NCBI GenBank assembly: GCA_007753915.1
Contig: CP036352.1
Coordinates: 930,001 to 994,000, forward strand
DNA length: 64,000 nt
Direction of reading: 5' to 3'
Source of the DNA: Phycisphaerae bacterium RAS2
GTDB taxonomy: Bacteria > Planctomycetota > Phycisphaerae > UBA1845 > UTPLA1
Below the pieces are notes generated by a model that was given only the letters and a program-made list of their open reading frames with translations, had not been told where the DNA came from and did not search any database. Within the stretch, counting starts at the first letter, position 1; each line of letters opens with the position of its first letter. Below, one piece after another: positions 2,027 to 58,126 of this stretch. A program made the translations under genes and the position numbers.

Positions 2027-3175
2027 ATGCTTCGGATTCTGCACATCATTCAATCGCTAGACCCGGCCTGGGGCGGGATCGCGCGCGTCGTGCCCGACCT
2101 TGCGGTGGGCTTGGTCGCCGCCGGTCACTCGTGCCGGATCGCGACGCTGGCGGGTGGGCGATTCGGCGCGCCGCCCGACATAAGCGGCGTTGAGGTCGTC
2201 GCGTTCTCCGATTCCGGCGGTTCGCGCCTGGGCCGCTCCGCGCAATTCAATAGCGAGATCGCCCGACTCGTGGCTGATTGCGATGTTGTTCACCTGCACG
2301 GGCTTTGGACGGGGCAGAATCAGGCCGTCGGCCGCGCCGCGCGCAGGGCCGGTCGCCCGTACATCATGACGCCGCACAGCATGATGATGCCGTGGGCGTG
2401 GAAACGCAGCCGGTGGAAGAAGCTGCTGGCCGGCTGGATGTTTGAACACGCCAACCTGCGCAGCGCGGCTATGCTGCACGCACTGGCCGACGGCGAGGCC
2501 GAGGCGATTCGCGCGCTGGGTTTCAACTCACGTGTGACGGTGATTCCCAACGGCCTGCACACCGCGGAGTACGCGGCGCTTCCTGCGCCCGATACCCTGC
2601 ATGCACGGTTTCCCAATGCGGCGTCCGCTAAGTGGGTGCTGATGCTGGGGCGCGTCGCGATCCAGAAGGGGATCGTGCCGGGCATGCAGGCATGTTTCGA
2701 TATTCTGGCGGCGGGCAAGGATTGGCATCTCGTGATCGCGGGGCCGGATGAATTCGGTTTGCAGCGAATGCTCGAGTCGGCGATTCGTCGGAAGGGACTG
2801 GAGTCGCGCGTAACGTTTACGGGACATCTGTCGCGCGACGAGGTGCGCGCAGCGCTGGGGCGGGCCAGCATTCTGCTTCAGCCCAGTTTGAGCGAGGGGT
2901 TGAGCATGTCGATCCTGGAATCGCTGGCGGCGGGCCTGCCCGTGGTGATTTCCGATGCCTGCAACATGCCGGAAGTGAAACAGGCTGACGCGGGGCGAAT
3001 CGTGCCGCCGAATCGTCGCGCGATCGCGGCGGCGCTCAAAGAACTCGTGACGCTGGACGACGCGGCGCGGCGCGAAATGGGCCGCCGCGGCAAGGCGCTG
3101 GCGGCGGATCGCTACGACTGGCGGGGTCTGATCCCGCGCTACGTCTCGATGTATGAGTCCGTCGCGCGGCGATGA
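2027..3175 (+). CDS. Glycosyltransferase family 4 (GT-B fold)
   Basis: This is a 382-residue retaining glycosyltransferase of the GT4/WcaI type that would transfer a nucleotide-activated sugar onto a cell-surface glycan or lipid carrier. The N-terminal Rossmann half starts at residue 1 (LRILHIIQSLDPAWGGIARV) with the glycine-rich GG acceptor loop. The C-terminal half contains the nucleotide-sugar motif PSLSEGLSMSILESLAAGLP near residue 285, with the EX7E-type glutamates. It has no membrane segment. It is divergent from guaB and not tightly linked to other glycan genes, so donor and acceptor cannot be assigned. It could belong to the large glycan locus about 14 kb downstream. Confidence 0.88.
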   Translation: MLRILHIIQSLDPAWGGIARVVPDLAVGLVAAGHSCRIATLAGGRFGAPPDISGVEVVAFSDSGGSRLGRSAQFNSEIARLVADCDVVHLHGLWTGQNQAVGRAARRAGRPYIMTPHSMMMPWAWKRSRWKKLLAGWMFEHANLRSAAMLHALADGEAEAIRALGFNSRVTVIPNGLHTAEYAALPAPDTLHARFPNAASAKWVLMLGRVAIQKGIVPGMQACFDILAAGKDWHLVIAGPDEFGLQRMLESAIRRKGLESRVTFTGHLSRDEVRAALGRASILLQPSLSEGLSMSILESLAAGLPVVISDACNMPEVKQADAGRIVPPNRRAIAAALKELVTLDDAARREMGRRGKALAADRYDWRGLIPRYVSMYESVARR

Positions 3176-3217
3176 TCGCCGCGTCCTCGGGCGACATGGA
3201 AACGTAAGTTCGCTCGC

Positions 3218-3712
3218 CTACTCAACGGGGCACAGCCGCTTGATCGTCTGAATCTGCCCGGCGTGGTAAACGTCGTGGCTGGCAATGCCGCGCAGGAGCG
3301 TCGCGTTGTTCACCCGGCTGCCGGGTGGGACGACCAACAAGTCAGCCGGAGTCAGCCCGGCGATCGCGTCCAGCAATTGCGCGTGCTCGGCGTCGAGGAG
3401 TTTCAGGTATTCCTTCCATTGTGCGGCGGCGAGCTTGGCGGGCACGGTGAACCAGTTGCTGCCCTTCAACGCGAAACTCCCGCGCTGATCACCGCGCAAT
3501 CGACGCCGCGCGGCGTACTTCCAGTACGCGGCGTGGAGCACGATTTCCGCGATGCACTTTCGCCCCCGGCCCGGTCGCCACACGGCCTGCGTCGCGGTCA
3601 CGCGCCGAACCGTGGAGCGGAGACTTGGGCCGTGCCAGCTCTTTCCGTCAAACACTTCGGCGACCAATTCGTGCAAGAGATCAATTGGGGCTAATGACTT
3701 GTCACGCGCCAT
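3218..3712 (-). CDS. DinB/YfiT-family putative metalloenzyme
   Basis: The 164-residue protein fits the DinB four-helix-bundle family, whose members bind a divalent metal through three histidines and act as thiol transferases or stress proteins. Candidate ligands are the His in LHELV near the start, the His in ILHAAYW in the middle and the His in HDVYHAGQI near the end; the last motif is the family hallmark. A longer frame extends upstream, but I chose the ATG at 3712 because AAGGAG lies just before it and the extra residues look non-coding. It is convergent with the preceding glycosyltransferase. The substrate is unknown. Confidence 0.8.
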   Translation of the reverse strand: MARDKSLAPIDLLHELVAEVFDGKSWHGPSLRSTVRRVTATQAVWRPGRGRKCIAEIVLHAAYWKYAARRRLRGDQRGSFALKGSNWFTVPAKLAAAQWKEYLKLLDAEHAQLLDAIAGLTPADLLVVPPGSRVNNATLLRGIASHDVYHAGQIQTIKRLCPVE

Positions 3713-3882
3713 GAACTTGCTCCTTGGTTGGTGCGCTGTGCTGTTGCTCCGCACGAGGTCAACGCTGCCGATTGTGGGGAATTTCTCATTCGCAGGAAGG
3801 GCACGCAACCACCGAGTCCCGCCGCTAAGCAAACGCCGTGCCAATTCCGGAAAAATCAGGCTGCGGCGACGAAAACGTAATG

Positions 3883-3888
3883 TATAAT
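3883..3888 (+). promoter_or_regulatory. Candidate -10 box upstream of rpoN
   Basis: A perfect TATAAT, preceded by TG, sits about 75 bases before the rpoN reading frame in a locally AT-rich stretch between the divergent DinB gene and rpoN. No good -35 hexamer is visible at 16-18 bases upstream. The call rests on the -10 match and position only. Confidence 0.4.
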
Positions 3889-3964
3889 CACATGGAGTCA
3901 GGCGGGCCAACGGCCGAAAACCAGATCGGGCGGCCCTTGGCTTTCGCCTGTCCCAGACGCCATC

Positions 3965-5551
3965 GTGGCCCTTCAGGAGAGGTCAGCACAGCGCGTGTCC
4001 CAGTACATGTCCATGATGCCGTCGCAGCAGATGCGGCTGGAACAGCGGCTCACGCCGCAGTTAATCCAGTCGATGGAGATTCTCACGCTGCCGCTGATGG
4101 CGCTGGAAGCGCGGGTGCGCGAGGAGCTGGAATCCAATCCCGTGCTTGAATTGCTCGAGCCGGAACCCGGCGCGGAGTCAACCGCATCCCCCAAGGAAGA
4201 CCTGCCCGCGACGGAAGCCAATCTCGCCGAGGCCGAGAGCTTCGAGCGTCTGGACCGCATGACGCGCGAGTTGGAGTTGGACCCGGGTGATCTGCCTTTC
4301 GGGCGCGCCGGGAGTTCCGCCGCCAGCGGCGAGCGCGACGCAAAGCTCGACGCGATGGCCAATACGGCCTCACGCGAGGAATCGCTCCGCGATCAATTGT
4401 CGCGCCAATGGTCGCTCATGGAAATGCCCGAAGCGCTGCGCCGGCCGGGCCAGGTGCTGATCGACTGGATGGATGACGACGGTTATCTGCGCAGCGAGGC
4501 CGAGCATCATTCAAAGGGCGGCAATGGCGACGAGCAGATGGAAGCCACGCCGCTCATCATCCAGCGCACGCCCGACGAAGCGCGGCGGCTTCTGGAGGAG
4601 ATCGGCACCGGCGCGCATCCGTCCATCGACGTGGCGGTGTTGGAGCAGGCACTGACGCTTGTGCAGACCCTGGAGCCGATGGGGGTCGGCGCACGGGACT
4701 TGACCGAGTGCCTGCTGATTCAGCTCGCCGGTCAGGAAGACGTTGATCCGCTTTGCGAAGAGATCGTGCGCAAGTATCTCGTGGAGCTGGCGAAGAACAA
4801 CTTCCCCGCCGTTGCGAAGGCCACCGGGAGGGACATCGAAGAAATCAAGGACGCCCTGCGTGTCATCGGTCGCTTGAATCACCATCCCGGCCATCTGGTG
4901 CGACAGGGCGACGTTCAGGGAATCACGCCGGACATCATCGTGGAGAACGTGGAAGAGGGCGACGGGTATGACGTTCGCCTCGCGCGGGGCAACACGCCGC
5001 GCCTGCGGATCAGCGCGCAGTATCGCGAGATGCTCCAGGATCGAGATGCGGACAAAGAGGCCCGCGAGTTCATCCGCCGGCGCATGGAAGCGGCGACGAC
5101 CATCATCGACGCCATCGCGTTCCGTCGGCAGCGGCTGCTTGAAATTGCGAAGATCATCCTCGACCGTCAGCGCGAGTTCTTCGACTTCGGGCCGCAGTTT
5201 CTCAAAGTACTGCGCATGCGCGATCTCGCCGAGGAATTGAGCTGCGATGCGTCGACGATCAGCCGGACCGTCGACGGGAAATACATCCAGACGCCGCGCG
5301 GCATTTTCCCGCTTCGCATGTTCTTCACCGGCGGCACGACCGACGGCAGCGGCGAGGCCGTCAGTTGGAACAGCATCAAGGCAAAAGTGAAGGAGATCAT
5401 CGACAAGGAGGACAAGAAGAACCCCCTGTCCGATGACGAAATCGTGAAGCTTCTCACCGAGTCAGGCGGCACACCCATCGCCCGCCGCACCGTCGCCAAG
5501 TATCGCGCGCAGCTCAACATTCCGTCGGTCCGCGAGCGGCGAGAATACTGA
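3965..5551 (+). CDS. rpoN: RNA polymerase sigma-54 factor
   Basis: This is sigma-54, which directs RNA polymerase to -24/-12 promoters and needs AAA+ activators to open them. The three regions are present: the Gln/Leu-rich activator-interacting part (QQMRLEQRLTPQLIQSMEIL, then NPVLEL), a long acidic linker, the core-binding domain, and the DNA-binding domain ending with the RpoN box ARRTVAKYR about 20 residues from the C-terminus. The start is uncertain: the frame opens with GTG at 3965, but in-frame GTG at 3995 and ATG at 4007 would also give the conserved N-terminus, and no clear ribosome site decides it. It is convergent with dxs, nine bases apart. No activator gene is nearby. Confidence 0.96.
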   Translation: MALQERSAQRVSQYMSMMPSQQMRLEQRLTPQLIQSMEILTLPLMALEARVREELESNPVLELLEPEPGAESTASPKEDLPATEANLAEAESFERLDRMTRELELDPGDLPFGRAGSSAASGERDAKLDAMANTASREESLRDQLSRQWSLMEMPEALRRPGQVLIDWMDDDGYLRSEAEHHSKGGNGDEQMEATPLIIQRTPDEARRLLEEIGTGAHPSIDVAVLEQALTLVQTLEPMGVGARDLTECLLIQLAGQEDVDPLCEEIVRKYLVELAKNNFPAVAKATGRDIEEIKDALRVIGRLNHHPGHLVRQGDVQGITPDIIVENVEEGDGYDVRLARGNTPRLRISAQYREMLQDRDADKEAREFIRRRMEAATTIIDAIAFRRQRLLEIAKIILDRQREFFDFGPQFLKVLRMRDLAEELSCDASTISRTVDGKYIQTPRGIFPLRMFFTGGTTDGSGEAVSWNSIKAKVKEIIDKEDKKNPLSDDEIVKLLTESGGTPIARRTVAKYRAQLNIPSVRERREY

Positions 5552-50178: not shown

Positions 50179-51384
<1,206 letters not shown>

Positions 51385-51721
51385 CGGTCGTTTCTCCGGT
51401 CGTGGGTCGATGCGGCACGGGCCGCGGGGTCTGATTCGTCCATTCGCCGCGCGGCCCTGCATCCATGGCCGAAGCATCGCGCGACGGCCATATCATGGGC
51501 GCGCTTCCGGCGGTTGGCAAGGGGAATTTTCGGAAAAAGTTAGGGCCTGTTCGGGGCGGGCCTTGGGGGCGAAAGCGAGGGGTGGCGGCGGTTCGGGCCG
51601 GGGCTTGCGTTCAGCCAACAGGATGATTCCAAACTCCCTCTGGCGGTCTCGTGCGCCGCGCCGTACGCCAGGGTGAGAATTTCCGCGTCATTAGTCCGCT
51701 GCGATAGCCCGGCCAGCGTGG
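51385..51721. other. 337-bp gap: recA leader and flank
   Basis: The gap holds the recA promoter (minus strand) and, further right, only weak short frames with no coding character. It is GC-rich near recA and becomes AT-richer to the right, where the zinc-ribbon array begins. Confidence 0.55.
51492..51520 (-). promoter_or_regulatory. Candidate recA promoter
   Basis: On the minus strand TTGCCA (51515-51520) and CATGAT (51492-51497) are 17 bases apart, five of six and four of six matches to sigma-70 hexamers, about 110 bases before the recA start. No SOS-box palindrome (GAAC..GTTC or CTGT..ACAG) overlaps it. Confidence 0.5.
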
Positions 51722-52291
51722 TCATCCGATTGGCCTTGTCGAGTCATCGAGAGTTTTGCTTATTGCATTCCCCATCAGCGCGCGCTGATCTTCGGGAATC
51801 ACCATTCCGCATTCGGGGCAGCAACCGAAAGTGTTTCTATGCAAGTCGTAACCACAACCATGGCAATTGCCCGGCTTGCGGTAGCTGGCCCTCGCTGAAT
51901 GCCGCAAATAGATGATTAGGCAGACAAGAAATCCAAGCGGTAGCCAGCAAGGCACCTGCAGCCCAACGACATTCTTCGGCTTATGCAAACTACAGTGGAA
52001 TCTCCAAGTTTCAGTTGTTGCCCGCTTTGATAGCTCGTCCGAGAGCATGGAGAAAGATTTAATGCCAACTGGATACACTTGGTCAAAGTATTTGTTTGTA
52101 GGATTTCTATAATGAATAATGGCTATGCTGAACGGAGACAAAGCTAGACTGATCGACTGTATGCGGATATTGATGTATGATCGCGACAAGCCAAGGTATA
52201 GATGAACACAAAGGCTAGACAGTATGAGGAGCCAAGCGTTTGCTCTCATAATGCGGTTACAAGTAATAGGATTTCCCCTGTAGAGTGTCAT
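51722..52291 (-). CDS. Zinc-ribbon membrane protein 1
   Basis: A 189-residue protein of the planctomycete small membrane type: a hydrophobic helix near the start (AWLLILSSLCVHLYLGLS), a lumenal middle, a second helix (VPCWLPLGFLVCLIIYLRH) and a C-terminal zinc ribbon NCHGCGYDLHRN...CCPECG, with two CxxC pairs. I know of no function for these ribbon-ended proteins, which occur many times per genome in planctomycetes. It is AT-richer than flanking genes and is the first of three such genes in one direction here. Confidence 0.7.
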   Translation of the reverse strand: MTLYRGNPITCNRIMRANAWLLILSSLCVHLYLGLSRSYINIRIQSISLALSPFSIAIIHYRNPTNKYFDQVYPVGIKSFSMLSDELSKRATTETWRFHCSLHKPKNVVGLQVPCWLPLGFLVCLIIYLRHSARASYRKPGNCHGCGYDLHRNTFGCCPECGMVIPEDQRALMGNAISKTLDDSTRPIG

Positions 52292-52330
52292 TGTCTATTA
52301 CCACAAGTAACCCAAAGACGAGAAAAGGGG

Positions 52331-52404
52331 AAGGCCGAGTGGCCCATCCTTTGCGAAGCAAAGCGTGGGGTTGCGATGATGACCCATCCGTCCGAATCGT
52401 TCGG
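52331..52404. repeat. Degenerate hairpin repeat, copy A
   Basis: A roughly 70-base element with the core TGGCCCATCCTTTGCGAAGC followed by AAAGCGTGGGG. CCCATCCTTTGC pairs with GCAAAGCGTGGG over a GAA loop with two mismatches. It lies between the first and second zinc-ribbon genes and is visibly related to copies B and C. Confidence 0.75.
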
Positions 52405-52467
52405 ATTATCTCCGATCAAAATCTCCTTCCGAAGCTGAAAGGGAAGCCCTCCGACATTTTGGACCCG

Positions 52468-53049
52468 CTATGGTGGACCCGCGCGCACGCCACCATCGGC
52501 GTTAGCTGCCGACCTTAGACGCATGAGTTGCTCCCCAGGAATAACCGTGCCACACTCAGGGCACATCCCGCTCTTGTTTGTTCGCAGGTCATAACTACAG
52601 ACTACGCATTCACTTCCCATTCCAATACGTTGGGACCTAGCGACGAGCCAAACGAGAATTAGTACGCACGGTAGTGTTAGGACCCAAAGCGGAATCCATA
52701 GAATACTATAGTGTATTTGCGCCGCTGATATGATGCGTTCCGAGCGAGGAAGAACAAGACCTGCTCTGATCCTCCAGTCCCACATCGCAGTTTCGGGAGT
52801 TTTCTTAAACTTCCATCCCAAGCGAAGGGAGCCTGCCTTACCGGCTTGGATGGCAGCCTGAATCTTCTCCTTCCCTCCCGTTGGATAGGTAGCGCTATAA
52901 ACCTGAACGATTCCATTCTGCACATTGAGCGATCCGCCAATCCAATAATAGCCTGCCTCATGGTTGAAGCTCACTACATGGATAAGTGCGCCAGTCGAAG
53001 CACATAATGCTGCGCTTCCGATTAACACTCGGTATCGCGTTTTTCGCAA
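52468..53049 (-). CDS. Zinc-ribbon membrane protein 2
   Basis: A 193-residue protein built like its neighbours: an N-terminal helix (VLIGSAALCASTGALIHVV), a soluble middle with strands (YYWIGGSLNVQNGIVQVYSAT), a long second helix (ILWIPLWVLTLPCVLILVWLVA) and the ribbon ECVVCSYDLRTNKSGMCPECG. The ribbon would sit on the cytosolic side. No enzymatic motif is seen. It is separated from gene 1 by hairpin repeat copy A. Confidence 0.75.
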   Translation of the reverse strand: MRKTRYRVLIGSAALCASTGALIHVVSFNHEAGYYWIGGSLNVQNGIVQVYSATYPTGGKEKIQAAIQAGKAGSLRLGWKFKKTPETAMWDWRIRAGLVLPRSERIISAAQIHYSILWIPLWVLTLPCVLILVWLVARSQRIGMGSECVVCSYDLRTNKSGMCPECGTVIPGEQLMRLRSAANADGGVRAGPP

Positions 53050-53073
53050 GATCGTACTAACCCCTTGGATTCA

Positions 53074-53223
53074 TTACGGGCCGTCGGCTGGAAGAGAAAA
53101 GGAAGAGAAAAGGGGACGGAAGAGAAAAGGGACGGGAAGAGAAAAGGGACGCAGCTTTTTTCTCGAGCCTGTCGCCATTCCTGCCGCGTAGTTTTCATTG
53201 TCCAACCACCGCTGCACGCTCAT
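53074..53223 (-). pseudogene. Possible remnant open frame (49 codons)
   Basis: A frame from ATG 53223 begins with plausible coding text (MSVQRWLDNENYAAGMATG) and then runs directly into the purine-rich tandem repeat, giving Ser/Phe/Leu/Pro-rich nonsense to its stop. A -10 like TACAAT and -35 like TTGCAG lie just before the ATG. It may be a gene whose body was replaced by repeat sequence; this is inference and weakly supported. Confidence 0.2.
53090..53150. repeat. Four tandem 16-17-bp purine-rich units
   Basis: The unit GGAAGAGAAAAGGGAC occurs four times with small length differences (the first truncated), between the second and third zinc-ribbon genes, and is followed by GCAGCTTTTTTCTCGAG. 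It is all-purine on one strand, so it could form unusual DNA structure. It is not a CRISPR: units are adjacent with no spacers. Confidence 0.85.
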
Positions 53224-53547
53224 CGCCCCCCATTGTACGTCGGCGGCTGGCCGGGCTGCAATGCGACGGGTTGCTCTATCGTGGCTCGCAGTCTTTCGTC
53301 CGCACGCCCGTGATAAACGTTCAGCCGATTAAATCGATCCCCGCCCACTCACCGACTGGTGAATCGATACGGCCGACCCACCCTACGAAACTTAATTCGC
53401 CCTGCAGCGACGTCAAGATTCGATGCGTCGAGCGGCTGGGTGGCCCATCCGTCCATCGTATGAACTGCATTGCAGGAGTGCAGCAAGAGGGGACAAGTTA
53501 ATAAATGGGAGCATTCTGCTTTATCGAGCGTGAATTAGAATGTCTCT

Positions 53548-53991
53548 TCAATCCCCCTGAAGGTCACCTTTAGTTCTTGTTTCACCGACTGCAGACCGGT
53601 CTATCGCGCCACACTCCGAACAAGTCTCCCCCGTCGCGGCCCGAAGGTCATACCCGCAGTTGAAACAGAGGCGAATTCCAAATTTGCGCAATTCGATCCG
53701 GAGTTTCCGTCGGGTTCTGGAACGGAGTGTGTAATGTGCAACGAAGAGCAGGCCTACGGCGATTCCCCCGACAAACATACCGCTCGCAATTGGACCGTAT
53801 CGGGTAAACCAATTCGGAAAGCCCTTTGCTGCAGCGTAACACATCAAAATCGGCAACAACACTAGAAGTACAAGCAGACAGACTCCCAATTCGACGGTGC
53901 TTCGGCGCAGGGCGGCTTTCGCATCGTTCCGCGCCGGGAATCGGGTAAGCTCTGGATACATCATTTCCTGAATGGGATTCATGAAACTCAA
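53548..53991 (-). CDS. Zinc-ribbon membrane protein 3
   Basis: A 147-residue protein with two hydrophobic helices (VELGVCLLVLLVLLPILMCYAA and GPIASGMFVGGIAVGLLFVAHY) and the C-terminal ribbon LCFNCGYDLRAATGETCSECG. It is shorter than the other two, lacking the lumenal middle. No function is known to me. It is the third of the same-direction set, and hairpin repeat copy C lies beyond its start. Confidence 0.75.
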   Translation of the reverse strand: MSFMNPIQEMMYPELTRFPARNDAKAALRRSTVELGVCLLVLLVLLPILMCYAAAKGFPNWFTRYGPIASGMFVGGIAVGLLFVAHYTLRSRTRRKLRIELRKFGIRLCFNCGYDLRAATGETCSECGAIDRSAVGETRTKGDLQGD

Positions 53992-54076
53992 CGCGCGCCA
54001 ATGGATGGATGCCTTCAGAACTTATTGTACGCCGTCGATGGCCGACCCTGCAACGCGACTAATTACTGGATAACGA

Positions 54077-54146
54077 GCAGGGTGGCCGACTCATTGCCGA
54101 GCAAAGGGTGGGGTCGCGATGGGCGGGCCAGCCGAACGATTAGCAC
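54077..54146. repeat. Degenerate hairpin repeat, copy C
   Basis: About 70 bases aligned with copy A: GGTGGCCGACTCATTGCCGAGC then AAAGGGTGGGGTCGCGATGG. The hairpin arms are less perfect than in copy A, but the shared AAAG.GTGGGGT.GCGATG block is clear. It lies about 85 bases upstream of the third zinc-ribbon gene start. Confidence 0.7.
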
Positions 54147-54318
54147 AGAAGAACCGGCGTCGTTCGTCCTCCGGACGAAAGGGTTGATGGGGTGGCGCTG
54201 TCCGGCAGCTGAAGCCGCCGGCAACGTGTGCGCGCCTGCGGGCGAGAGGCCTTCCGTGGCTTCGCTCGCATGCAGCGTGCGTCAGAAGGGCGGCCGGTCG
54301 GTCACGGTGACGAACAGG

Positions 54319-54343
54319 GTGTCACTGCTTGAAGCAGTGACAC
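54319..54343. repeat. Perfect 25-bp palindrome
   Basis: GTGTCACTGCTT and AAGCAGTGACAC flank a single G, so the whole 25 bases read as an inverted repeat with at most a five-base loop. There is no T-run, so it is not a classical terminator. It looks like a repeated extragenic hairpin. Confidence 0.85.
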
Positions 54344-54511
54344 GCGGGCGGCGAAATGGGGACCAATGCTTGCAGGCGTGCCGAGCGCAGAAAAATGCCG
54401 CCGGGTTCCCCTCCTGCCCCGACGGCTGTGCGGGTTGGTCAAATGACTGCAATGAGTGCAATCGCGCCGATCGTCGGCGAATCGCCGACAAGAACGCGCT
54501 AGCTTAAGCAA

Positions 54512-54576: not shown

Positions 54577-55752
54577 ATGTTAGCGTCTGGCCGTCGTCCG
54601 GCGGAGCGCGGCCCCGCGCAACGTCTTGCATCGGCCGGACCTTGGGTGACAGGTCGCTACGTGGACTCGAACGAACTCCTCGCAGCACGCCCGTTTCAGC
54701 GTCGCTCGACGCGGGGCAATCGGCTGCGCGCCCGCATCTGGCGCGAGTGGTGTTTTCTCAAGGCGACGATCGGGCATCTGGGGGTGCGGCTGGGGCTGAT
54801 GGTCGCGATCGTCATCCTGGGCGGCATCAGCTTCAAAGTCTTTGAGCCCGACCGGCAGCACAGTTTCATCCGTGCGTGTTATCTCACGTGGGCCCTGGTC
54901 TTCGGCGAGTCGCCCGAGGATTTTCCCGATCATCTCTTCCTGCAGTCGCTTTTCTTTATCGTGCCGGTGCTGGGGCTGACGGTCATCATTGAGGGAATTG
55001 TCGATTTATCAATGCTCGTCGGCGACCGGCGGCGGTCGGAGAGGAGATGGTGCGCGATCATGGCGGCGGCCTACAAGGATCACATCGTGCTGGTCGGCTT
55101 CGGCAAGCTCGGCTTCCGAACCTACAAGCTCCTGCATCAACTCAACGAGTCGGTCGTGATCATCGAGTGCAACACCGGCTGCCAGTTCCTGGAAGAGGCG
55201 CGGCGCGAAGGCGCGCCCGTGCTGATCGGCGATGCCCGGCGTGAGTCGCTTCTGGCGGATGCGAACGTGGCTCACGCCCGCAGCATCATCCTCGCCACCG
55301 ACAACGACCTGGCGAATCTGGAAATTGCCCTCGACGCCCGCAAGATCAATCCGAGCATCCGTGTCGTCCTGCGCATGTTCGATCAGAACATGGCCGACAA
55401 GATCCGCGAGGGCTTCAACATTCCCATGGCCATGTCGCAGTCCGCCATGTCGGCGCCGGCCTTCGCCACGGCGGCCATCGGAGCGGAGATCGTGAACAGC
55501 TTCGCCGTCGGCGATCAGCTCGTGGTGATGCAGCGGTGGAAGGTTGACGCGGCCGGCGGGCTGGCCGGGCGGACGGTCGGGCAGATCATCAGTCAGCGCG
55601 GCGTGGGGGTCGTGGAGCATCGAGCGCGCGGCGGGGCGGTGACGTTGTTCCCGCCGGTCGAGACAAAAATCGAGAACGGAGACGAGTTGCTCGTGCAGGG
55701 TGTGTTTGAAACGCTGCACGAAGGGGCGACCGGTCGATTACAATCCCCCTGA
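54577..55752 (+). CDS. TrkA-N/RCK membrane protein (channel-like)
   Basis: A 391-residue protein like two-helix potassium channels with a cytosolic RCK domain. After a basic N-terminal region come a helix (LGVRLGLMVAIVILGGISFKVF), a pore-like segment RACYLTWALVFGESPEDFP and a second helix (LFLQSLFFIVPVLGLTVIIEGIVDLS). The RCK/TrkA-N part has HIVLVGFGKLGFRTYKLLHQL, the NAD-type loop, and GDARRESLLADANVAHARSIILATDND, then a TrkA-C domain near 310-390. The usual TxGYG filter is absent; VFGES occupies that place. The first 60 residues are doubtful and the start could be later. Regulated ion flux is inferred; the ion is uncertain. Confidence 0.85.
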   Translation: MLASGRRPAERGPAQRLASAGPWVTGRYVDSNELLAARPFQRRSTRGNRLRARIWREWCFLKATIGHLGVRLGLMVAIVILGGISFKVFEPDRQHSFIRACYLTWALVFGESPEDFPDHLFLQSLFFIVPVLGLTVIIEGIVDLSMLVGDRRRSERRWCAIMAAAYKDHIVLVGFGKLGFRTYKLLHQLNESVVIIECNTGCQFLEEARREGAPVLIGDARRESLLADANVAHARSIILATDNDLANLEIALDARKINPSIRVVLRMFDQNMADKIREGFNIPMAMSQSAMSAPAFATAAIGAEIVNSFAVGDQLVVMQRWKVDAAGGLAGRTVGQIISQRGVGVVEHRARGGAVTLFPPVETKIENGDELLVQGVFETLHEGATGRLQSP

Positions 55753-57064: not shown

Positions 57065-57424
57065 GTTTGATGAAGTTGCGTTGACGGCGGTCGCCCTAGC
57101 TGCAAGCGGATACGGCGACTGAAGATGGTTAGTGGCCGGAAGTCGCGACAAGTCCATTTCTCAAAAGAAGTTATCGCGTAAAGGCATGTCCCGAATCTCC
57201 GCCCACACGGGAAGGCTCTGACTTGGAGGAGCCAGTGCGTAAAAAAACAAAACGGAACCGTGCAAACCCTTGACATGGAGTCGTGATTTCGGTTAGCATG
57301 ACCTCAAGTTGCGGTGCTGTAGCCCCCAAACGGGGCGTGCTATGCGTGCCGTTGGAGCGAGGAAATACAGGCGGCGGAGGGTCAAATCGACTTGGCCGCC
57401 TCAAGGAAATCAGGAGGAAGAGAC
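57065..57424. other. 360-bp gap: promoter and leader of PEP-CTERM gene
   Basis: The first part, after the tRNA, has no recognisable element. The second part contains a sigma-70-like promoter and about 120 bases of leader with two GC-rich short stems (GCCCC around CAAAC, and GGCGGC...GCCGCC near 57371-57402) before a strong AGGAGG site. No riboswitch of known class was recognised. Confidence 0.55.
57270..57299 (+). promoter_or_regulatory. Sigma-70-type promoter for the PEP-CTERM gene
   Basis: TTGACA (57270-57275) is a perfect -35; TAGCAT (57294-57299) matches -10 at four of six positions with an 18-base spacer. It lies about 125 bases before the PEP-CTERM start, leaving a leader of some 120 bases. 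Confidence 0.6.
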
Positions 57425-58126
57425 ATGCGGAAGTTTTCACTTGTAGTAGCGTTCGTTCTGGCCGCGGCCGTGTCGGTCAACGCCCAGAACATCAACATCG
57501 ACTTTGATACGGCTGCGGTCGGCGGTGCTGGCGACGGCGCACCGGCCAATAACTACGGCGCGGCTGCCGGCCTCGCCGGTCAGGGTTGCTGGAACCTGTT
57601 CGACGGCATCGCTCAGACCCAGATCCTGAACGCTGGTACGGGTATTGCTTGTGCGGCGACGCCGGTCACGGTCACACGCAGCACGGCGGCCGGCGGTAAC
57701 TTCGCGTTTAACAATGCGAACACGCTCGGTGACCAGCAGCTCCTTCTCGACGATGGTCAGGACCTCAGTGCGGTCACTGGCCCGCTGACGATCACGTTCA
57801 CGGGTTTGACGAACGGTCTGTACAATGTTTACACGTACGCGGTTGCTCCGGACTTCACGGGCACTGACACGACCGAAGTCACCATCAATGGTGTCGCCCT
57901 GACCTCGACTGGCCCCATTCCGGCCGGTAACGTTTTCGTCGCTGGACAGACGCACACGCTGCACACGAATGTTGCGGTCGTCGCTGGCACGCTGACCATC
58001 AGCGCCAATGAGATCGCACCGAGCTTCGGAACGATCAACGGCGTTCAGCTGGTCCTGATCCCCGAGCCGTCGTCGCTGGCCCTCCTCGGCCTCGGTGCCC
58101 TCGGCCTGATCCGCCGCCGACGCTAA
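57425..58126 (+). CDS. PEP-CTERM secreted protein
   Basis: A 233-residue exported protein with a signal peptide (KFSLVVAFVLAAAVSVNAQ) and the C-terminal PEP-CTERM tripartite tail PEPSSLALLGLGALGLIRRRR: Pro-Glu-Pro, a hydrophobic run and an Arg cluster. An exosortase removes the tail and the protein is anchored at or released from the surface. The mature part is Gly/Ala/Thr-rich with beta-like repeats and only two Cys (in the QGCWN and GIACA segments); it likely contributes to extracellular matrix. AGGAGG is eight bases before the ATG. No exosortase gene is in the window. Confidence 0.93.
   Translation: MRKFSLVVAFVLAAAVSVNAQNINIDFDTAAVGGAGDGAPANNYGAAAGLAGQGCWNLFDGIAQTQILNAGTGIACAATPVTVTRSTAAGGNFAFNNANTLGDQQLLLDDGQDLSAVTGPLTITFTGLTNGLYNVYTYAVAPDFTGTDTTEVTINGVALTSTGPIPAGNVFVAGQTHTLHTNVAVVAGTLTISANEIAPSFGTINGVQLVLIPEPSSLALLGLGALGLIRRRR

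Follow-up and report, generated by a model that had tools for sequence, protein, structure and literature searches.

Mobile insertion cassettes (MICs) carry a passenger gene between repeat ends and have no transposase of their own. Integron gene cassettes (attC/IntI) comprise unrelated, AT-rich orphan genes with a near-identical element at each stop codon, sometimes in tandem. Repetitive extragenic palindromic sequences (REPs) of the GTAG type are hairpins that form inverted pairs (REPINs), lie in intergenic DNA near the 3' ends of genes and flank the gene of a Y1 (HUH) REP-associated tyrosine transposase (RAYT), i.e., form a REPtron (PMC3733652, PMC3116915, PMC6006769). In TIRtrons, a RAYT gene lies between long terminal inverted repeats (PMC3733652). 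Here, we relate these systems to a stretch of DNA from Phycisphaerae bacterium RAS2, in which a 2.8-kb block between recA and trkA combines genes for small membrane proteins with three families of repeats, namely a 5' module that starts with a GTAG-type REP, a 3' element at the stop codon and a REP-like tail (REP-A). The window, i.e., the whole analysed stretch of 64,000 nt, covers bases 930001-994000 of the single-contig 4.32-Mb genome; coordinates of up to five digits refer to the window and longer ones to this genome, unless another is named.

An earlier note on this stretch had proposed that genes and repeats alternate here as mobile or amplifying, cassette-like units. A cassette-like architecture is supported: the block is specific to its lineage, the repeat-gene-repeat order recurs with unrelated cargo, and the GTAG REPs flank a RAYT gene. 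Two parts of the idea are not supported, i.e., cassettes of the integron type and units that belong to one gene family. The features listed above for REPtron systems are all found in this genome, with the difference that the REP here starts a 270-bp module, which recurs before unrelated single genes with a separate 3' element. As in MICs, a passenger gene without its own transposase lies between repeat ends; unlike in MICs, neither terminal inverted repeats nor a passenger that occurs more than once were found. One end of the units matches a REPtron and the other does not, and empty sites exist, with junctions blurred by ~70 nt. The likeness to TIRtrons consists in one RAYT of the genome with inverted GGGGACGCAGCT ends and in the AAAAAGCTGCGTCCC carried by the 5' module, which, however, has one side only and no transposase gene.

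Repeat families and recurrent units

The repeats of the block exceed chance and form three distinct families instead of one. The 3' element (RE core; 52397-52486, minus strand) is 90 nt long and shares 19 nt with the end of gene 2 (52468-53049, minus strand), the cargo of the block's complete unit. The GC-rich REP-A adjoins its distal end (52333-52396, minus strand), as it does for 5/15 3' elements in the genome. The 5' module of the same gene (LE; 53124-53393, minus strand) spans ~270 bp and opens with the GTAG-type REP (REP-B). The earlier note had taken copies A and C and two fragments for related hairpins of ~70 bases. Copy A makes up the distal half of a longer repeat (154 bp, 52333-52486), which the genome matches at 13 further places (down to E 1.7e-45). 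It is indeed related to copy C (54061-54135, minus strand; 80% over 40 nt, E 1e-4) and to the piece at 53437 (53434-53450, no strand; 17 nt, 88% match), i.e., these three are REP-A, while the fragment at 53373 belongs to the GTAG REP. Elsewhere in the genome, copy C has relatives of ~81-83% identity. Of the supposed hairpins, a fold is seen for the GTAG REP (z -1.97), while the 3' element of the window is unconvincing, as it folds no better than shuffles (z +0.76). A 13-mer test alone was uninformative (3 matches observed vs. 2.5 expected). The block holds every copy of these repeats in the window, i.e., the 5' module, the 3' element and the three REP-A pieces; the sole other REP-A-like string (18540) matches loosely.

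The order 5' module, gene, 3' element and REP-A is found in the same orientation at gene 2, in a tandem pair (3197106-3199251) and at 3470794-3472370, where two overlapping open reading frames (ORFs) lie between the ends. That is, there are four units at three loci when the tandem pair is counted as two. Comparison of the units gives 72-93% identity for the 5' modules and 82-97% for the 3' elements, and the enclosed DNA has no nucleotide similarity (best E 0.2). The tandem pair shows this most directly, with 93% identical 5' modules, 97% identical 3' elements and cargo proteins that align at merely 29% over 135 aa. Near-identical ends around unrelated cargo go beyond what point mutation explains, and content and ends therefore have different histories.

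Since several loci show near-identical 5' modules and 3' elements around unrelated genes, genes may be gained, lost and exchanged by recombination between the repeats, and the arrangement would thus function as a cassette system does, though lacking an integrase. We favour, with confidence about evenly balanced, the reading that lineage-specific orphan genes sit in insertion-tolerant slots, share their ends and are swapped by recombination between these repeats. The farther-reaching proposal of a novel integrase-independent gene-cassette system of one planctomycete order, in which a REP-derived promoter module and a conserved 3' element enclose single orphan genes that are exchanged between chromosomal slots, is in our view unlikely.

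The recurrence of the units bears also on independent accretion. Here, ordinary REP/RAYT-type and other miniature elements would either insert downstream of stop codons and in accessory regions or persist there, orphan genes would be gained and lost by other routes, and the cassette appearance would be a by-product. A complete 5' module is missing upstream of most 3' elements, and 18 of the genome's 25 ribbon genes, i.e., genes of the kind found in the block, have none of these repeats nearby, both of which fit accretion. Difficult for it is that 5' module and 3' element co-occur in the same order around a short gene stretch in four units at three loci, where our own arithmetic (15 3' elements in 4.3 Mb) gives a chance of ~0.003 per 5' module. 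We consider accretion possible, though doubtful.

The block (51555-54380, no strand) lies between recA (50179-51477, minus strand) and a gene with a TrkA domain (trkA; 54577-55752, plus strand), with three minus-strand ORFs in between. In a genome of the same genus (~87% nucleotide identity), homology ends at 51554 and restarts at 54381, i.e., over a gap of 2.8 kb, and the slot is occupied by an unrelated gene of 463 aa. In three other genomes, the gap is nearly closed (recA-trkA distance at most ~0.4 kb). A comparison of gene content, which the earlier note had suggested between strains, thus finds relatives without the block, which is specific to the lineage, and this cluster of small membrane-protein genes is a recent gain. 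BLAST against the same-genus genome also provides empty sites, namely ~22 nt in place of 3470728-3472449 and ~25 nt in place of 2798998-2800854. The 463-aa gene of the slot (2681-4072 of the same-genus stretch examined) is rich in CxxC and has no DNA similarity to the ribbon genes.

The 3' element and integron cassettes

The covariance model R1 identifies 15 copies of the 3' element in the genome, scattered across about ten loci; on its sense strand (minus in the window), the element reads GCGCGCGGGTCCACCA..GCGGGTCCAAAATGTCGGAGG... Ten of the copies begin close to where a sense ORF stops, between 37 nt past its stop codon and 19 nt ahead of it. These ORFs have 103-339 aa and a GC content of 0.43-0.52 and are mutually unlike, i.e., they comprise ribbon genes (3 copies), DUF2092, TPR and FGE-sulfatase-domain genes, a putative lipoprotein gene and unknowns. 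Gene and 3' element form tandem arrays at 1838917/1839957 and 3198054/3199099. The head of the element (36 nt) contains a doubled GGGTCC and is strongly conserved in sequence across genera.

Taken by themselves, these observations would suit site-specific cassettes, in which the 3' element is an attC-like site for some recombinase and each cassette consists of a gene plus 3' element: one element lies just past the stop of unrelated orphan genes, its head is conserved, arrays exist, and the copies are homogeneous inside the genome and diverged among genomes. Yet no copy holds the attC boxes R'' (RYYYAAC) and R' (GTTRRRY) as a pair in the required order, and the integron integrase model TIGR02249 yields 7 sub-threshold matches in the genome (best 87.9 bits vs. 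a cut-off of 265). The earlier note had seen no integrase, and the genome likewise shows no integron integrase above the cut-off. Also in contrast to integrons, the copies are dispersed instead of forming one array beside attI, and a promoter-like 5' module is present. Viral contigs do not match the head pattern of the 3' element, and a virus was therefore rejected as carrier. Integron gene cassettes were rejected on attC boxes and integrase, i.e., membership is not supported, and site-specific cassettes in general appear highly improbable to us.

The 3' element was also considered as a conserved structured RNA and rejected: RNAalifold proposes 22 pairs, but covariation and pair counts do not exceed those of shuffles. 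Rfam reports only a tRNA in the window. Nor does the element resemble a REP, since it has no GTAG foot and, in the window copy, no shuffle-beating fold, and no RAYT flanked by a pair of copies was found. At 3084121-3090925, three 3' elements lie among fragments resembling Rhs/YD-repeat genes, and two of the three adjoin related fragments of 0.5 kb, a setting like that of displaced C-terminal cassettes.

REPs, RAYT genes and proposed gene exchange

The REP-B hairpin of the 5' module (53358-53386, minus strand; GTAGGGTGGGTC..GATTCACC) carries GTAG at its foot and is followed by ~200 nt with a TACAAT box. The module of the window is 72-83% identical to those at 3197106, 3198188 and 3470794, with weaker matches at 1828616, 1829735 and 1829988. 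In several copies, TTGMAT lies 18 nt ahead of the TACAAT box, which, judged from this conservation, may be a promoter. Past the box, the modules have a common short open frame (MSLQRWLDNESYAAEKATGSRK.., in the window MSVQRWLDNENYAAGMATGSRKK at 53124-53210); a stop interrupts this frame in the 3470794 copy, and it may therefore be non-coding.

REP-B shows all hallmarks of GTAG REP/RAYT systems, i.e., the GTAG foot, dispersed copies with inverted pairs (REPIN; 1667807/1667914, 2950344/2950451, 1828622/1828834, 1829994/1830206) and a flanked RAYT gene. The latter, for which a search elsewhere in the genome had been suggested, is a Y1_Tnp gene (2307437-2307796) between REP-B copies at 2307322 and 2307983. 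The region 2307300-2308010 is a textbook REPtron with a RAYT of 190 aa between inverted TCGTAGGGTGGGTCAGCCTCATCGACCCACC. A second RAYT (2948477-2949257, ~262 aa) has inverted ends of the TIRtron type (GGGGACGCAGCTC..GAGCTGCGTCCCC) and a 3' element ~2.5 kb off, and a further Y1_Tnp match (1897307-1897531) lies within an open frame of 861 aa, far exceeding the usual length of a RAYT.

A REPtron with the same REP raises the question of whether the units transpose as a whole. Their ends would then be those of a non-autonomous IS200/IS605-like element with a passenger, served by a RAYT in trans, similar to a mobile insertion cassette. Complete units do begin (5') with a GTAG REP and finish (3') in a REP-like tail, and the unit at 3470799-3472370 is wholly absent from the same-genus genome. 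On the other hand, the tail REP-A is unlike REP-B and no RAYT with REP-A at its ends was found, the insertion edges lie ~70 nt outside the REPs, and no passenger was found in two copies. Furthermore, REPtrons are thought not to transpose as units (PMC6006769). We regard transposition of whole units as quite improbable.

The exchange of genes between shared ends could instead proceed as follows. The recA-trkA gap would be an insertion-tolerant slot in which AT-rich orphan genes encoding small membrane proteins have accumulated in this lineage. The GTAG REPs, including REP-A-like relatives and the 5' module, would most likely owe their spread to the genome's RAYT (HUH Y1) transposases, and the order-specific 3' element provides a second kind of dispersed repeat directly after stop codons. 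Recombination between the shared ends, either RecA-type or at single-strand breaks made by RAYTs, might then add, remove and swap the genes in between. If so, RAYT/REP repeats would gain a role in gene turnover, beyond that of selfish intergenic repeats. Such exchange would bear on the origin of new gene cassettes and on how orphan genes may gain regulatory ends and spread without an integrase. The loci with 93-97% identical flanks and unrelated genes would make gene exchange between constant ends watchable by strain comparison.

In relatives, the covariance model finds the 3' element in 9/60 genomes with 1-4 copies each. The exact head pattern occurs in 7/397 genomes of the class, all of the same order, and control matches amount to 0. 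Other carriers include metagenome-assembled genomes labelled Phycisphaerae, and across genera just 36-40 nt of the element are conserved. The copies of relatives mostly have convergent or co-directional neighbour genes, whose composition is ordinary and whose stop is often 40-185 nt away, and this speaks for accretion.

Several observations weigh against gene exchange between shared ends. The copies of relatives sit where REPs generally do, and the cassette reading is therefore weaker outside this genome. Since REPs commonly adjoin the 3' ends of genes (PMC3733652), the position after the stop can be explained without a cassette mechanism. No enzyme is assigned to the 3' element, whose single copy found in the same-genus genome (1208348) is interrupted by a RAYT element. 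No cargo gene was found with both flanks at two sites, such that movement of a unit is undocumented. Finally, the edges of the empty sites are blurred, i.e., even at the best-resolved one ~70 nt on each side of the 3470794-3472370 unit are unalignable, and the exact crossover is seen at no junction.

The interrupted copy of the same-genus genome (~2893 of another stretch than that with the recA-trkA slot) is broken ~40 nt in by sequence bearing AAAGGGGACATTC, with a RAYT gene directly after it that is 54% identical to the RAYT at 2948477-2949257.

Ribbon genes and neighbouring features

Genes 1-3 of the block each encode a small membrane-type protein, whose C-terminal ribbon has the pattern C-x2-C-x-YDL ... 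CxECG: gene 1 (51722-52291, minus strand) ends in CHGCGYDL..CCPECG, gene 2 in CVVCSYDL..CPECG and gene 3 (53548-53991, minus strand) in CFNCGYDL..CSECG. With a GC content of 0.47, 0.52 and 0.53, respectively, they are AT-rich compared to 570-nt stretches of the window (0.632 +/- 0.038). ORFs, motif ends and composition thus bear out the three AT-rich minus-strand genes that had been described before. None of the proteins has a match in Pfam or NCBIfam above the cut-off. PADLOC gave zero matches for eight proteins, on which ground a role of the cargo in anti-phage defence was rejected.

We also asked whether the repeats flank ribbon genes more often than by chance, a test that the earlier note had proposed. 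This is the case for the 5' module, where ribbon genes follow at 3/4 independent loci (p ~1e-6, assuming 3,600 genes) and 4 of the 6 modules with a following gene precede one. Of the 3' elements, only 3/15 copies follow a ribbon gene. Since the other 12/15 do not and most ribbon genes are repeat-free (see above), the link is one of enrichment, not of definition. That is, ribbon genes are enriched next to the repeats but neither required nor defining, and the idea that the units belong to them is not supported.

Two further features were seen in the window. Between copy C and trkA, the perfect palindrome GTGTCACTGCTTGAAGCAGTGACAC (54319-54343) resembles strings that occur elsewhere in the genome. 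Beyond trkA, an ORF at 57392-58126 carries the C-terminal PEPSSLALLGLGALGLIRRRR, a PEP-CTERM-like sorting signal.
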